From positions 233,554 to 297,553 of the forward strand of contig NZ_WPCW01000002.1 in NCBI RefSeq assembly GCF_011421425.1: DNA of 64,000 nucleotides, written 5' to 3'. A program made the translations under genes and the position numbers. Source of the DNA: Streptococcus catagoni. Its GTDB lineage: Bacteria > Bacillota > Bacilli > Lactobacillales > Streptococcaceae. Positions 10,514 through 17,487 of the stretch are shown here, piece by piece. The notes below the pieces were generated by a model, which worked only from the letters and a program-made list of their open reading frames with translations, did no database searches and was not told where the DNA came from. The number at the start of each line of letters is the position of its first letter. Position 1 is the first letter of the stretch.

Positions 10514-10555
10514 AGATGATTGTTATAACTTGTAAATTCTAAGAGGAGAACAGGA

Positions 10556-12001
10556 ATGTCTAAACCAATTCGTGTGCGCTATGCACCAAGTCCAACTGGA
10601 CTTTTACATATCGGTAATGCCCGTACCGCACTTTTCAATTATCTTTATGCCCGCCATCATGGTGGTGACTTTATTATCCGTATTGAAGATACTGACCGCA
10701 AACGTCATGTGGAAGACGGGGAACGATCACAGCTTGAAAATCTTAGATGGCTGGGTATGGATTGGGACGAAAGTCCAGAAACACATGGAAACTACCGTCA
10801 GTCTGAACGCCTAGAACTTTATCAAGAACATATTGACAGTTTGCTTGAAAAAGGCCTTGCCTACAAGTCCTATGTGACTGAAGAAGAATTGGCAGCTGAG
10901 CGTGAGCGTCAGGAAGCAGCTGGTGAAACGCCTCGTTACATCAATGAATTTATGGGAATGTCTGAAGCTGAAAAAGAAGCTTATATTTCTGAACGTGAAG
11001 CTCAAGGTATCATTCCAACCGTTCGTTTAAAAGTCAATGAAAAAGCCATTTACAAATGGACCGATATGGTTAAGGGTGACATTGAATTTGAAGGTGGCAA
11101 TATCGGTGGTGATTGGGTTATCCAGAAAAAAGACGGCTACCCAACTTACAACTTTGCAGTGGTGGTTGATGACCATGATATGCAAATTTCTCATGTCATT
11201 CGAGGAGATGACCATATTGCCAATACGCCTAAACAGTTGATGGTCTATGAAGCACTTGGCTGGCAAGCACCAGAATTTGGTCATATGACCTTGATCATCA
11301 ATTCAGAGACTGGGAAAAAATTGTCTAAACGTGATACCAATACCCTTCAATTTATTGAAGATTACCGTAAAAAAGGCTATCTTTCAGAAGCAGTCTTTAA
11401 CTTCATTGCGCTTCTCGGTTGGAATCCTGGCGGTGAGGATGAAATCTTTTCTCGTGAGCAGTTAATTGACCTCTTTGATGAAAATCGTTTAAGCAAATCT
11501 CCAGCTGCCTTTGACCAAAAGAAAATGGATTGGATGAGCAACGAATACCTCAAGAATGCTGATTTTGAAATAGTATTTGCTCTTTGCAAACCTTTCTTGA
11601 AAGGAGCAGGGCGATTAAACGAAAAAGCAGAAAAACTAGTGGAACTTTATCAACCACAATTAAAATCAGCAGATGAAATTGTGCCACTGACTGACCTATT
11701 CTTCTCAGATTTCCCAGAATTAACAGAGGCTGAAAAAGAAGTGATGGCCGGCGAAACCGTGCCAACTGTTCTTAAAGCCTTTAAAGAAAAATTGGAAGCA
11801 ATGACTGAGGAAGATTTCCAACCAGAAAATATTTTCCCACAAATCAAAGCTGTTCAAAAAGAAACAGGTATAAAGGGCAAGAACCTATTCATGCCAATCA
11901 GAATAGCTGTTTCAGGAGAAATGCATGGGCCAGATCTTCCTAACACTATCTATCTTTTAGGACGTGAAAAATCGATTGAGCATTTGAATAATATGTTGTA
12001 A
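10556..12001 (+). CDS. gltX: Glutamate--tRNA ligase
   Basis: Charges tRNA-Glu (and in streptococci also tRNA-Gln, which is then amidated by GatCAB). Class I synthetase of 481 residues. The HIGH motif appears as HIGN in [15 protein letters not shown] (about residues 9-23) and the KMSKS motif as KLSKRD (about residue 255). The C-terminal anticodon-binding region is complete. AGAGGAG ribosome site before the ATG. Single gene, closed by a strong hairpin which is also the landing site of the group II intron. Confidence 0.97.
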
Positions 12002-12036: not shown

Positions 12037-12553
12037 AAGTACGACAGGCATGTTGTACATCTGAGGTGAGAGTCCTCCGTTGGCACCCGCTACCGGTGAA
12101 CCCAATAGCGACCCCCAAGCCTGACTATCGTGAGGTAGCGGGGAAAGGAAGAGAGAGCGAAATCGTGGCTCTACGAATAGAAAGGTGATATCAAGGCCTA
12201 TATAGCGGATGATGAGGCTTGAAACTCTAAAGTCCAAAAAGGTAGTCGTAACCTATAGTCGTAAATCATGAGAGTAAACGAGGAAAGATGTACACCTTAT
12301 CCTGTGAGGTCTCATGAGCGTTCTAGACGTAGTAAGAATGAATCATGAGAAGTCAGCCGATGCCATAGTAGCGATGAAACTTCTGTAATGGAAGTAGAGT
12401 GAAGGGCTAAACAATTAACCGAAGGCTACCTACTTCACTTGTGTCTGTACAACTAGCGGTCTGATAGAACAGGGTGCGGTCGCGTATTGACTAGAGGAAA
12501 GTTCACTAATATAAGATGTCCCTCAGACACCGAAATAAGAAAGGAATACGCAC

Positions 12554-13258
12554 ATGTCAGAATTACTAGATAATATCCTATCTCGGTCCAATATGTTTGA
12601 AGCCTACAATCAAGTGAAAGCTAACAAAGGCTCAGCTGGAATTGATGGCATCACAATTGATGACATAGAAGACTATCTCCGCCAACACTGGCGACCAACC
12701 AAGGAATTGATAAAACAGAGGAAATACAAAGCTCAACCAGTCCTGCGAGTTGAAATCCCTAAACCCAATGGAGGCGTCCGTCAGCTTGGGATTCCGACAG
12801 TGATGGATAGGATAATCCAATATCAATATGACCAAGACCAAGATTGTGAGACCAGGTAAACTGAAGTATCTAGGATTTGGGTTCTGTAAGTCAGCAGAGG
12901 GGTGGAAAAGTCGTCCACATCAGACAGTGTACAGAGTTTCAAGAGAAAGCTCAAGAAACTTACCACACGCAAATGGAGTATTGACTTAGATAGCCGTATT
13001 GAGAAATTCAATTGGCTTATCCGTGGGTGGATAAACTATTTCTCACTAACCCATATGAAGACAGTGATGTCAGAAATAGATGAAAGGTTGAGGACACGAG
13101 TTAGGGTTATTATCTGGAAACAATGGAAGAAGAAATCTAAGCGACTTTGGGGACTTCTTAAATTAGGAGTTCCGAAATGGATAGCAGATAAAGTATCTGG
13201 ATGGGGCGACCATTATCAATTAGTAGCTCAAAAGTCAGTTCTAAAACGAGCTATATAA
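12554..13258 (+). pseudogene. Group II intron maturase/reverse transcriptase, deleted and frameshifted
   Basis: The N-terminal 90 or so residues (MSELLDNILSRSNMFEAYNQ, then NKGSAGIDG and IPTVMDRIIQ) are the start of an LtrA-type reverse transcriptase. The text then jumps to KIVRPGKLKYLGFGF, which belongs to the end of the RT domain, so about 190 residues including the catalytic YADD region are gone. The junction lies near 12,825-12,840, where the repeated GACCAA suggests slippage or recombination at a short repeat. A second lesion, a one-base loss near 12,925, shifts the maturase X domain (SVQSFKRKLKKLTTRKWSID onward) into another frame. No retromobility can come from this copy. Confidence 0.9.
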
Positions 13259-13336
13259 AAATCAGTCCTCGCAAAACGGGGACTGATTTCTTGCTTGGAT
13301 TACTACTTAGAACGACATGCGTTAAAAGTTAATTGA

Positions 13337-13401
13337 ACCGCCGTGTGCCGAACGGCACGCACGGTGGTGTGAGAGGGGTTAGAAATTAGCCCCTACTCGA
13401 T
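13337..13401 (+). ncRNA. Catalytic domains V and VI of the group II intron
   Basis: Domain V folds as ACCGCCGTG / CACGGTGGT, a 2-nt CG bulge, TGCC / GGCA and a GAAC tetraloop (13337-13368), which is the textbook shape. Domain VI pairs GAG-A-GGGG with CCCC-T-CTC, leaving A13395 unpaired as the branch point. Confidence 0.85.
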
Positions 13402-13784: not shown

Positions 13785-15140
13785 ATGGAACTATTTGGCT
13801 TTGTTTGTTTTTCCCTCTCAATTATCATTTATTATTGGTCAGAGATTCGGATTTTTTCGTTTTTATCAGATGTTCGTCTGCCGATTTGGAAGAAATTCTT
13901 TATTATTTCGGCAGCCATATTCTTGAACCAAGTTCATTTTTTGACCCCTTTACTAATTGATCCTTTCCTATTTCTATTAGTACTTGGACTTGAAAAAAGA
14001 AAATTGTTTTCCATTCAATCCTTCTTCTTAGCCTTTTTGCCAAGTGTTTTTATGGATCTGTTTTCCCGTTTTTTAATGACCAGTATTATTCCTTTCTTAG
14101 CCCCATCGCATTACATCAATTTAAATACGGCAGTCCTTAATATTCTGGCCTACCTCTTTGTTTATCCCTGTTTTGCCTTGATGAATTATATGGTTGGAAA
14201 GGAATATAAGCTTATCTTTTCATCAGGTCCCACCCAGAGGGCCACAAATTTCTATACCATTTTTTCTATTTTTATTATCACCTACTATGTGGATATTTTT
14301 TTGATTCTAGGCTTTGATGATCCCTTTTTACATTTTCTGCATTACAATGAACCAGCAGATACTGTCGCATCCTATCGTAGTCTTTTCTTAGTCTTAAACT
14401 TTCTTTTCCTGTTTTTGTTTTCTTATTTCAATCGCAAATCAAAAGCTTATCTAGAAAGTGAACTGAAAAAGGAGCAGGAGGACTACATCACCAATTTAGA
14501 GCTTTATGGCAATCATCTAGAACAGCTCTATAAAGATGTCAAATTGTTCCAGGAAGGCTATGTCAAATGCTTAAATCATTTAGGAGAAACCATTGAAAAA
14601 GGTGATATCAAAGGCATTCAGTCTCTGTATAATCAAATAGTAGAAAAGTCCAATATCTATTGGGACGACAAGCACTACAACATTTCAAAATTAAGTGTTA
14701 TTGGGATTTCTCCCATCAAGAGTCTGCTTTCAGCTAAGATTATCGAAGCTGAGAAAGTAGGAATTGAAACTATGGTAGAGGTTCCTGATACCATTAGTGA
14801 ATCTTTGATTCCAGAATTGGATCTGGTCTTACTCTTATCTATTTTTTGTGATAATGCTATTGAGGCCTGCTCAGAATTAGAAAATCCTAAGATAGCTCTT
14901 GCTTACTTCTTACTTGAAGGCAAGCATGTTTTTGTTGTGACAAACTCAACTAAGGAAGAAAAAATAAATATCTCAAAAATCTTTACAGAAGGCTATTCTT
15001 CCAAAGGAGATGCGCGTGGGATAGGACTATCCAATGCAAGATTAATTTTGCAGAAATACTCTCAAGTTACCTTACAAACTAAAAGTGAAAACTATACTTT
15101 TAGTCAAACCTTAACAATTTCACCATCAAAAGGAGTATAA
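13785..15140 (+). CDS. fasB: FasB, HPK10-type sensor lacking the phospho-accepting histidine
   Basis: Membrane sensor of the Fas virulence system. Residues 1-215 form about six helices; a coiled linker and an HPK10 kinase region (about 225-451) follow. The ATP-binding boxes are intact: N-box D356-N357-AIEAC and G-box R411-GIGLSN. Where sister FasC has the His box KHDSEN, FasB reads QEGYVK with Glu257 at the His position, so autophosphorylation on itself looks impossible. ATG at 13785 has an AAAGGA site 7 bp upstream. The stop directly abuts the fasC ATG, so the genes are coupled. Likely work: supply the ATP-binding half to a FasB-FasC heterodimer. Confidence 0.9.
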   Translation: MELFGFVCFSLSIIIYYWSEIRIFSFLSDVRLPIWKKFFIISAAIFLNQVHFLTPLLIDPFLFLLVLGLEKRKLFSIQSFFLAFLPSVFMDLFSRFLMTSIIPFLAPSHYINLNTAVLNILAYLFVYPCFALMNYMVGKEYKLIFSSGPTQRATNFYTIFSIFIITYYVDIFLILGFDDPFLHFLHYNEPADTVASYRSLFLVLNFLFLFLFSYFNRKSKAYLESELKKEQEDYITNLELYGNHLEQLYKDVKLFQEGYVKCLNHLGETIEKGDIKGIQSLYNQIVEKSNIYWDDKHYNISKLSVIGISPIKSLLSAKIIEAEKVGIETMVEVPDTISESLIPELDLVLLLSIFCDNAIEACSELENPKIALAYFLLEGKHVFVVTNSTKEEKINISKIFTEGYSSKGDARGIGLSNARLILQKYSQVTLQTKSENYTFSQTLTISPSKGV

Positions 15141-16448
15141 ATGGGCAAGATAGGAAGTGCTATGATCTTATATGCCATTATCTTCCTTGATATCTGGCTA
15201 CTTTTTTCAAAGTCAACAGGTATTAAGTTGAAATGGTCTAAAATTTTCCTCATAGCCTTGGTATTTGTTAGTCTAAATATCGTCTTTAATTATAGTGTTC
15301 TTTGTAATCAACTATTATTTATTCTTTTAAGTTATTTTTACTTTTCAGACAGAAAATTTGCGGAGCATATTTTCTATGGCCTGTTTTCAAATGTACTGGT
15401 AGAGACCTTGGTTAGGCTGGTCATTTTCTTTTTTTTCCCAGTACTCTTGGGATATAAAATAGGAGAGATCTACCATAATAGCACCCTGCTGATCCTTTCA
15501 TATCTTTTGGTCATCCCCTTTTTTACTTTTCTATCCTATGTTTTTAGTATTGATATCTCCTTGATTCGCTTTATCAATGAAGATATGATCAAAAAATGGG
15601 TTGTTTTCATGAATATTATCATGATATCCTACTTTTTTTCTGTACATATCATGGCCTACTTTGAAACAGACTATCATAGTCTCTACTACCAGTTTCGGCC
15701 AAAATTGATTCTAGCTTATTTACTGATTTTAATTTTTTTCATTCTGCGTTGGGATCGTTTTACCAAGGATCAGCTAGAAAAGAAACTCTTACTGGCTCAA
15801 AAAGAACGGACTGATAATCTGGAGAAGTATAATCACTATATTGAACAATTTTATAAGGATACCAGAGCCATTAAGCATGATTCAGAAAATATTATGATCA
15901 GTCTAAAAGATAGTGTTGATAGTGGTGACCTAAAAGAAATAGCTAGGGTCTATCAGACCGTCGTCAAGGAATCAGCAGCCCCAATCTTTAACCATGATTT
16001 AGGCTTTTGTGGCTTAGAAAACATCAAAGAATCTGTCATCAGAAGTCTCTTAAATTCTAAATTATTAGAGGCACAAAGCCAGGGGATTGATCTCTATATT
16101 GAAGTACCAGAAACAATAGAAGAGATTAACTTTAAATTACTGGATCTGGTGGTCGTTTTGTCTGTGCTTTTGGATACTGCTATCCACACAGCAACAGGAA
16201 GCATTAGACCCTTTATTTCCATTGCTTATTTTTATCAAGGGAATAAGCAGTGCTTTATCATTGAAAATAGTACGAAAATGAAGCAGGTTAAGATGGCAAA
16301 ACTCTTCGACCAAAAGGTTGATAACAGTCATTACCTCAATCAAAAGAGTATTTCTCGCTTGACATCAATTTTGGAAACCTATCCCAATACCAATTTTTCA
16401 ACACGTAGTAATCACTACCGCTTAAGACAAATATTAGAAATGTGGTGA
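15141..16448 (+). CDS. fasC: FasC, HPK10-type sensor with His box but lost ATP-binding boxes
   Basis: Second membrane sensor of the Fas system, 435 residues, six predicted helices in the first 200. The dimer/His box is good: K245-H246-DSEN250, matching the H-D-x-x-N pattern of AgrC-like kinases. The N-box, however, reads D345-TAIHTA (Asn to Thr at 346), and no GxGL box can be found; the matching place reads QKSISRLTS. It therefore seems able to receive phosphate but not to bind ATP well, the mirror image of FasB. ATG immediately follows the fasB stop; fasA starts 7 bp after. Confidence 0.9.
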   Translation: MGKIGSAMILYAIIFLDIWLLFSKSTGIKLKWSKIFLIALVFVSLNIVFNYSVLCNQLLFILLSYFYFSDRKFAEHIFYGLFSNVLVETLVRLVIFFFFPVLLGYKIGEIYHNSTLLILSYLLVIPFFTFLSYVFSIDISLIRFINEDMIKKWVVFMNIIMISYFFSVHIMAYFETDYHSLYYQFRPKLILAYLLILIFFILRWDRFTKDQLEKKLLLAQKERTDNLEKYNHYIEQFYKDTRAIKHDSENIMISLKDSVDSGDLKEIARVYQTVVKESAAPIFNHDLGFCGLENIKESVIRSLLNSKLLEAQSQGIDLYIEVPETIEEINFKLLDLVVVLSVLLDTAIHTATGSIRPFISIAYFYQGNKQCFIIENSTKMKQVKMAKLFDQKVDNSHYLNQKSISRLTSILETYPNTNFSTRSNHYRLRQILEMW

Positions 16449-16454
16449 GAACAT

Positions 16455-17192
16455 ATGAATATTTTTATCCTTGAAGATGATTTTATCCAGCAGACACGTA
16501 TTGAGTCTGTTATCGAAGAGATACTGACAGAAAAAGACATTAGTTGTAGCCGTCTGGAAATTTATTCCAATCCTAACAAGTTATACGAAAGTGTTCAAGA
16601 AAAGGGAAATCACCAATTGTTCTTTTTAGATATTGAAATTAAAAATGAACGAAAAAGAGGACTTGAACTAGCTTCGGACATTAGACAGTTAGACCCCAAT
16701 GCGATTATTGTCTTTGTGACCACACACTCTGAGTTGGCTCCCATTTCTTTTAAATATAAGGTCTCTGCCTTAGACTTTATTGATAAGTCTGTTGATAAGG
16801 AGCAATTCAAAGAACAGATTGCTGACTGTATCGCCTACACCTACGAAACGATGACCAAGCATGAGCCAGAGGACCTGTTCATGTTTGAAACCTCGCAAAC
16901 CAAGCTGCGCCTACCCTTTAAAGATATTTTATATTTTGCTACCTCTTCTACCCCACATAAAGTTTGTTTATGGACACAAACAGAGCGTTTGGAATTTTAC
17001 GGAAATCTTTCAGAAATCCATGATGTAGCTCCAAAACTGTTCATGTGTCACCGTTCCTATTTGATAAACCTTGAGAATGTTGTTAGAATTGATAAATTTA
17101 ATCAAATGGTCTACTTTGAAAATGGGGATTCTTGCTTGGTATCTCGTCTTAAAATGAAAACTTTAATTGAAAAGTGGGAGATACTGCAATAA
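16455..17192 (+). CDS. fasA: FasA, LytTR-type response regulator
   Basis: Response regulator of the Fas system, which in S. pyogenes works by switching on the small RNA FasX. The receiver (about residues 1-120) has the acidic pair EDD near residue 8 and the phospho-Asp in FFLDIEIKNERKRG (about residue 57), then a conserved Lys after DFI. The C-terminal LytTR DNA-binding domain spans about 145-243 (MCHRSYLINLENV is typical). 245 residues, standard for AgrA/ComE-like regulators. Its likely target, a 21-bp-spaced direct repeat, lies 15 bp after its stop codon. Confidence 0.95.
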   Translation: MNIFILEDDFIQQTRIESVIEEILTEKDISCSRLEIYSNPNKLYESVQEKGNHQLFFLDIEIKNERKRGLELASDIRQLDPNAIIVFVTTHSELAPISFKYKVSALDFIDKSVDKEQFKEQIADCIAYTYETMTKHEPEDLFMFETSQTKLRLPFKDILYFATSSTPHKVCLWTQTERLEFYGNLSEIHDVAPKLFMCHRSYLINLENVVRIDKFNQMVYFENGDSCLVSRLKMKTLIEKWEILQ

Positions 17193-17279: not shown

Positions 17280-17487
17280 TATAAATAAAGACCTCACACG
17301 TTTCAGCTGTAAGGAGGGTCAATCCCCAACTCAATCAAAATATTGTTTTCTCTCTCTCTCCATAAACAAATAGTATTTTTGATATGATCGCTCACTTTAC
17401 TGATCGTGATTTCAGTTGTCTTTGTTTGGATATCATTTTAACTGAGATTTTTCAGTTAAGTGGCCCAGTTTAGTCTGGGTCTTTTTT
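17280..17487 (+). ncRNA. fasX: FasX regulatory small RNA
   Basis: The promoter and terminator delimit a transcript of about 208 nt between fasA and rnpA, the same size and place as the roughly 205-nt FasX of S. pyogenes, which pairs with target mRNAs (for example stabilising streptokinase mRNA). No coding frame of note. The 3' part folds as TTAACTGA/TCAGTTAA (17438-17459) followed by the terminator GGCCCAG/CTGGGTC and six T (17462-17487). The exact 5' end is inferred from the -10. Confidence 0.8.

Follow-up and report, generated by a model that had tools for sequence, protein, structure and literature searches.

AgrC and ComD, kinases of the HPK10 type, carry the H-box, N-box and G-box of a histidine kinase all in one protein. 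Split histidine kinases as such are already known. In CheA3/CheA4 of Rhodobacter sphaeroides ATP binding resides on one protein and the phosphoacceptor on the other, and the two form a complex in which one phosphorylates its partner (Amin, Porter and Soyer 2013, PMC3591291). These are chemotaxis kinases in which whole domains are missing. The same study put the share of histidine kinases that could be split and bifunctional at up to 1.7%, and its theory allows for ultrasensitivity or bistability when the free acceptor protein acts as the phosphatase. In Corynebacterium glutamicum, the pseudokinase ChrS has a destroyed ATP-binding (CA) domain; it promotes signalling and heterodimerises with its paralogue HrrS (PMC9491836). 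Here we analyzed the fas locus (fasB, fasC, fasA and the small RNA FasX) in a 64,000-nucleotide stretch of the Streptococcus catagoni genome (contig NZ_WPCW01000002.1, positions 233,554 to 297,553; hereafter the window). The results make it very probable that FasB and FasC are complementary halves of one AgrC-type kinase, most likely an obligate heterodimer in which FasB phosphorylates FasC His246.

The core of this mechanism was published in 2025 for Streptococcus pyogenes FasBCAX (Baral et al. 2025, Mol Microbiol, PMC12675982). In that work the FasC H246A mutant abolished FasX, which is the result of an experiment that had also been proposed in a preliminary description of the window. FasC without its HATPase domain was functional, even when expressed from the chromosome, so that the kinase domain is dispensable, and a FasC 1-286 truncation was functional as well. 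Plasmid-borne FasB consisting of only the dimerization and histidine phosphotransfer (DHp) domain and the HATPase domain complemented, and FasB H241A on a plasmid complemented like wild type. Two-hybrid assays gave a signal for FasB-FasC and none for FasB-FasB or FasC-FasC, and FasA was phosphorylated at D60. In the model proposed by Baral et al., FasC is a pseudokinase whose H246 receives phosphate in trans from FasB; in their view FasB may also have its own phosphosite at H284, and they propose a phosphatase activity for FasB. The preliminary description had arrived at trans phosphorylation of FasC His246 by FasB in a heterodimer, and this is the model that Baral et al. drew from their experiments. 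It regarded the novelty of this partition as uncertain. The FasC half of the partition is in print, whereas a statement that FasB lacks the H-box His was not found in the accessible part of that paper; a term search of its main text found no AgrC and the word 'alignment' once, concerning FasA. Nor did the accessible part yield extra pairs, arrays or DHp-only partners of other species. No report of a wider family of split pairs was found among the titles and beginnings of abstracts listed, a set mostly without subscription papers. What is added here is the evidence on FasB, together with split pairs, arrays and DHp-only partners that make up a wider family.

The fas locus lies wholly on the + strand of the window, and all coordinates below are positions within it. 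The fasB gene (13785..15140, 451 aa) encodes a predicted membrane sensor part, a DHp domain without a phosphoacceptor His and a CA domain with its motifs. The fasC gene (15141..16448, 435 aa) encodes a predicted membrane sensor part, a DHp domain with His246 and a CA domain without a G-box. They are followed by fasA (16455..17192), a response regulator with a LytTR DNA-binding domain, and by FasX (17281..17485; RF02384, 145.5 bits, cut-off 100). The locus is therefore complete in the order fasB, fasC, fasA, FasX and has the marks of a Fas system, namely a LytTR regulator preceded by two kinase-like genes and a FasX small RNA directly downstream of that regulator.

The cytoplasmic module of S. 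aureus AgrC (solved structure 6e52), aligned by phmmer, served as the reference; it is the best solved-structure match of both FasB and FasC, by sequence and by predicted fold. AgrC FRHDYVNIL pairs with FasB FQEGYVKCL and with FasC IKHDSENIM, ungapped in this region. At the H-box position of FasB (FQEGYVK, 14547..14567; F255-Q-E257-G-Y259), Glu257 (codon 14553-14555) stands where AgrC has His. The N-box DNAIEA (14850..14867; D356-N357) and the G-box GIGLSN (15018..15035; residues 412-417) are present. Conversely, FasC has an H-box KHDSEN (15873..15890; K245-H246-D-S-E-N250, with the His246 codon at 15876-15878), reads DTAIHT at the N-box position (16173..16190; D345-T346) and has no GxGL. Thus, measured against a complete HPK10/AgrC-type kinase, FasB lacks the phosphoacceptor His and FasC lacks the G-box of the ATP site. 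A GHKL domain (HATPase_c_5) is detected in both proteins, at 62.8 bits in FasB and 25 bits in FasC (cut-off 22). Single-chain models of the two proteins were moderate (mean pLDDT 78 and 80) and cannot tell ATP binding.

By motif only, the ATP site is on FasB and the phosphoacceptor on FasC, a division like that of CheA3/CheA4. Unlike CheA3/CheA4, FasB and FasC are AgrC-type membrane receptors, the losses are mostly of motifs in otherwise complete proteins, and some pairs of this kind stand in arrays. The likeness to ChrS/HrrS is that a kinase with a defective CA domain heterodimerises with a paralogous kinase; ChrS differs from FasC in being a laboratory-evolved frameshift, and HrrS is described as the phosphorylating kinase (PMC9491836). 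The S. pyogenes Fas system shares with the window the operon, FasC H246, the heterodimer and pseudokinase model and the proposed direction of phosphate. It differs in that the published account proposes H284 or H241 as a FasB site.

The reciprocal partition of FasB and FasC is real and conserved in orthologues, as judged from their sequences. The orthologue set comprised 19 streptococcal genomes, the window's included, from which 18 FasB and 19 FasC were read; the nineteenth FasB (L008/L087) is broken and is not in the FasB count. The H-box His is present in 0/18 FasB versus 19/19 FasC, and the residues at this position in the 18 FasB are E, E, N, S, M, S, I, K, A, D, K, D, D, I, K, L, V and L. 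The GxGL G-box shows the opposite distribution, being found in all 18 FasB and in none of the 19 FasC. An N-box Asn occurs in 18/18 FasB versus 11/19 FasC, and the remaining FasC have T (two), Q (one) or H (five). Because 11 FasC keep this Asn, its loss was rejected as a family-wide trait; Thr346 is specific to a lineage and the G-box is the loss that FasC proteins share. The preliminary description, whose coordinates and residue numbers for both proteins proved exact, was correct that FasB had lost the H-box His and kept the N- and G-boxes, and that FasC had kept His246 and lacked GxGL; its reading of Thr346 does not extend to FasC in general. It had further described the His, Asp and Asn of the H-box as all lost from FasB. 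That is true of the window's FasB, whereas across the orthologues only the His is gone from every FasB and the Asp that follows it is still present in 8/18. In the alignment with orthologues and AgrC that it had proposed, the partition holds.

Since reciprocal halves have been lost and the same split occurs in streptococcal relatives, FasB and FasC likely work only together. The CA domain of FasB would bind ATP and FasC would offer His246, neither half likely being sufficient. Within a FasB-FasC dimer, the ATP-binding domain of FasB would phosphorylate FasC His246 in trans, FasC would pass the phosphate to FasA, and phosphorylated FasA is predicted to switch on FasX. We infer both this direction of phosphotransfer and the individual transfer steps.

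To place the window's pair among its relatives, FasA was searched in 284 genomes of the genus, the loci of 31 genomes were fetched and their H-, N- and G-boxes were read. Kinases were scored H+ or H- for presence or loss of the H-box His, and CA+ or CA- for presence or loss of the ATP-site motifs. The 30 best FasA matches (down to 293.6 bits) comprise 18 of the 19 Fas genomes and 12 further genomes whose regulator is 56-64% identical to FasA; the fasA of the remaining Fas genome (G275) is broken and scores below them. Of the 284 genomes, 19 have FasX matches, 16 of them above the cut-off; these are exactly the genomes with a FasC orthologue, and the 12 non-Fas genomes gave no FasX match in this search. 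The next five FasA matches (52-53% identical, L075-L079) have one complete kinase each behind the regulator.

At least one split pair, an H-/CA+ kinase with an H+/CA- kinase, is found in each of the 12 non-Fas genomes. The pair adjoins the regulator in G048, G060, G155 and G270. In G175, G181 and G182 it lies within a set of four kinases, and there the H+ partner, 297-301 aa long, is DHp-only and has no CA domain. These natural DHp-only partners of three genomes mirror the FasC 1-286 truncation reported as functional (PMC12675982). They are encoded, with the H-box intact, at L101 3758-4648, L102 3995-4897 and L103 4099-5001; next to each of them lie an H-/CA+ kinase and two more kinases that are degenerate. 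In G034, G199 and G266 the fasA-like gene is solitary and the split pair lies elsewhere; these are the combinations L063/L110 with L113, L064 with L112 and L065 with L114, in which a kinase-less regulator accompanies a distant pair, and the stretches fetched for L112, L113 and L114 hold no FasA-like regulator. In G183 and G078 the split pair is away from fasA, and the array on the fasA side consists of one complete kinase and H-/CA+ kinases.

Extra pairs also lie upstream of fasB in 7 of the 19 Fas genomes. There is one in each of G074, G151, G033, G274 and G275, three in G010, and several, partly broken, in G152. The G010 array (L097 1646-12576) reads gltX, three (H+/CA-, H-/CA+) pairs, FasB, FasC, FasA and FasX, so that four split pairs, or eight half-kinases, stand with one regulator. 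Among the three non-Fas pairs of this four-pair array, paralogous partners mostly resemble one another no more closely in the DHp part than in the membrane part, and free cross-pairing within the array is therefore without support. Second, weak FasX-like matches were seen at G010:C2:314720-314902 (63.6 bits) and at G152:C32:61535-61716 (52.7 bits, overlapping the other G152 match); no other Fas genomes have kinase arrays as large as these two.

Fas-type loci were selected, among the matches listed, for their resemblance to FasA, FasB or FasC, and the genus may therefore have further split kinases. Counting frames of at least 280 aa, their 96 kinases comprise 46 H-/CA+, 43 H+/CA-, 5 H-/CA- and 2 H+/CA+; two G175/G181 kinases with a doubtful G-box (GGIGV) are counted here as H-/CA+ and their G182 counterpart as H-/CA-. 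A same-strand H-/CA+ neighbour within 500 bp accompanies 40 of the 43 H+/CA- kinases, and the three exceptions stand beside a broken partner frame. Similarly, 40 of the 46 H-/CA+ kinases have an H+/CA- neighbour. All 21 aligned H+ partners (two FasC included) carry the H-box H, D and N, with no invariant column in the CA part, and among 25 aligned H- kinases (two FasB included) the N-box Asn and G-x-G-L are invariant.

Control relatives are nearly all complete. In control regulator-kinase loci of the genus, 27/28 kinases have all boxes, the exception being a 475-aa protein (L115) with no readable H-box. A search with the H- alignment gave, among the matches listed, 80 named-genome loci, some from the same species as the fas-type set, in which 80/95 kinases are complete; 13 of the other 15 lie in fas-type loci and the rest are cut or unreadable frames (L160, L182). 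Outside Streptococcus, 22 of 24 kinases of at least 280 aa are complete in 20 regions chosen among the matches listed, and none of the 24 is H-/CA+. The other two, both scored H+ without CA, lie at a single locus (L230 266-2261), where two H-box-intact kinase frames with little or no CA stand beside a regulator and the fetched stretch shows no H-/CA+ partner.

The two partners co-diverge. A Mantel test on 33 pairs, one of them with a broken H- frame (L093), gave r = 0.949 against a highest value of 0.20 in 2000 permutations, a result that linked genes would also give. A tree was built without the box and CA columns, leaving out frames below 280 aa and L085, L088, L089, L094, L102 and L103. It requires at least two changes of His state and three of CA state, or three and four with all (long) rows in. 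In the approximately unbiased (AU) test one origin of the H- kinases was not rejected (p = 0.296; all H- rows in, four long G175 rows out), and one origin of the CA- kinases was weakly rejected (p = 0.032). An earlier AU value of 5e-8 against one H- origin was an artefact of a nested H- row left outside the group. The two complete kinases of G183 and G078 fall among the H+ partners with support of 90. Possibly the H- partner arose first and the CA domain of the other partner decayed later, an order that suits the tree and the tests. The split pairs were probably duplicated as units, and they may be the old input of FasA-type streptococcal regulators.

The sequences of these families bear on a rival proposal: phosphorylation of FasB on a non-canonical His of its own (H284 or H241), signalling in cis, and a merely accessory sensor role for FasC. 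We compared 22 FasB in the S. pyogenes numbering. The 448-aa protein P0006, whose residues 241 and 284 are both His, fits the FasB of PMC12675982, has Ser254 at the box position and shares its local sequence with entries named S. pyogenes. Baral et al. left H284 possible, and H241 occurs in 18/22 FasB. However, H284 occurs in only 8/22, with Glu at the matching position in the window, which led us to reject it as a general phosphosite and to infer, by comparison of residues, that it is probably not a phosphosite at all. Moreover, FasB H241A complements and FasC H246A alone abolishes output in the published work, and no His is invariant, or nearly so, across the 25 aligned H- kinases. Given that the box position is never His among the 22 FasB, that H284 is in so few and that H241A complements, FasB appears to have no conserved canonical phosphoacceptor, and a FasB phosphosite acting in cis is very unlikely.

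Several observations weigh against a strict division of labour between the partners. The CA domain of FasC keeps a GHKL-like predicted fold (match to 4bxi, the solved-structure match for the CA domain, TMt 0.79), the N-box Asn persists in 11/19 species, and the domain is still constrained, with a mean pairwise identity of 0.56 versus 0.58 in FasB and a rough median ratio of nonsynonymous to synonymous substitution rates of 0.25 (23 species pairs) versus 0.10 in FasB (7 pairs). Six of the 46 H-/CA+ kinases have no H+/CA- neighbour: one doubtful kinase each in L101 and L102, two in L104, one in L105 and one near a contig end in L125. The large motif counts are also not independent, because the tree holds few change events. 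Independent contrasts number only one or two pairs and are not decisive, and a Fisher test of the same data disregards relatedness and carries no weight here. From the constraint, the fold and the retained Asn, a residual role or weak nucleotide binding of the FasC CA domain is possible, and the domain may have a role not shown by laboratory growth.

The persisting fold and the constraint would also suit a FasC that is a complete though weak kinase, or one that activates allosterically, with His246 structural rather than a phosphoacceptor. Against this, all 19 FasC lack the G-box, CA-less FasC works in the native locus (PMC12675982), and the operon's other kinase has no H-box His, which leaves His246 as the one canonical acceptor; we regard this alternative as very unlikely. 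That fasB and fasC are merely decaying, in an accidentally complementary pattern, is scarcely credible even though some fas loci are truly broken (fasB and fasA in L087, several extra kinases in L093, fasC and fasA in L099, fasC in L100), since the kept half is invariant across aligned family members, pairs recur both within the fas locus and elsewhere and co-diverge, and in S. pyogenes the operon works, a phenotype that contradicts decay (PMC12675982).

A motif hints at where a phosphatase activity might lie. H-D-x-x-N is kept in FasC and in 21/21 aligned H+ partners. Because its His is lost in every FasB, free FasC is predicted to be the more likely FasA phosphatase. More tentatively, and rather short of an even chance in our estimation, FasBC may belong to a streptococcal family of membrane-bound split kinases whose receptor pairs multiply as units, in which up to four insulated pairs feed one FasA and one small RNA, and in which a free acceptor acting as phosphatase would make the response ultrasensitive or bistable.

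Upstream of the window's fas locus, likewise on the + strand, lies a gene that we take from its sequence to be gltX (10529..11998); gltX is also upstream at both other fas-type loci with listed flanks (L097, L107). Between gltX and fasB is a group II intron remnant (12124-13401, with domain matches at 12124-12407 and 13336-13401), whose apparent reverse-transcriptase frame is left as short pieces only. It occupies the interval that holds the extra split-kinase pairs in some other species.

In the literature we located, as far as its accessible parts go, the biochemically studied split kinase is the chemotaxis one (PMC3591291). The comparison presented here bears on a question left by the 2025 work, whether FasB has a phosphosite of its own or none, and it sets a single unusual operon within a family of split AgrC-type receptor kinases. 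These provide natural pairs for studying how histidine kinases choose their dimer partner, why a kinase is split and how many receptors serve one regulator.
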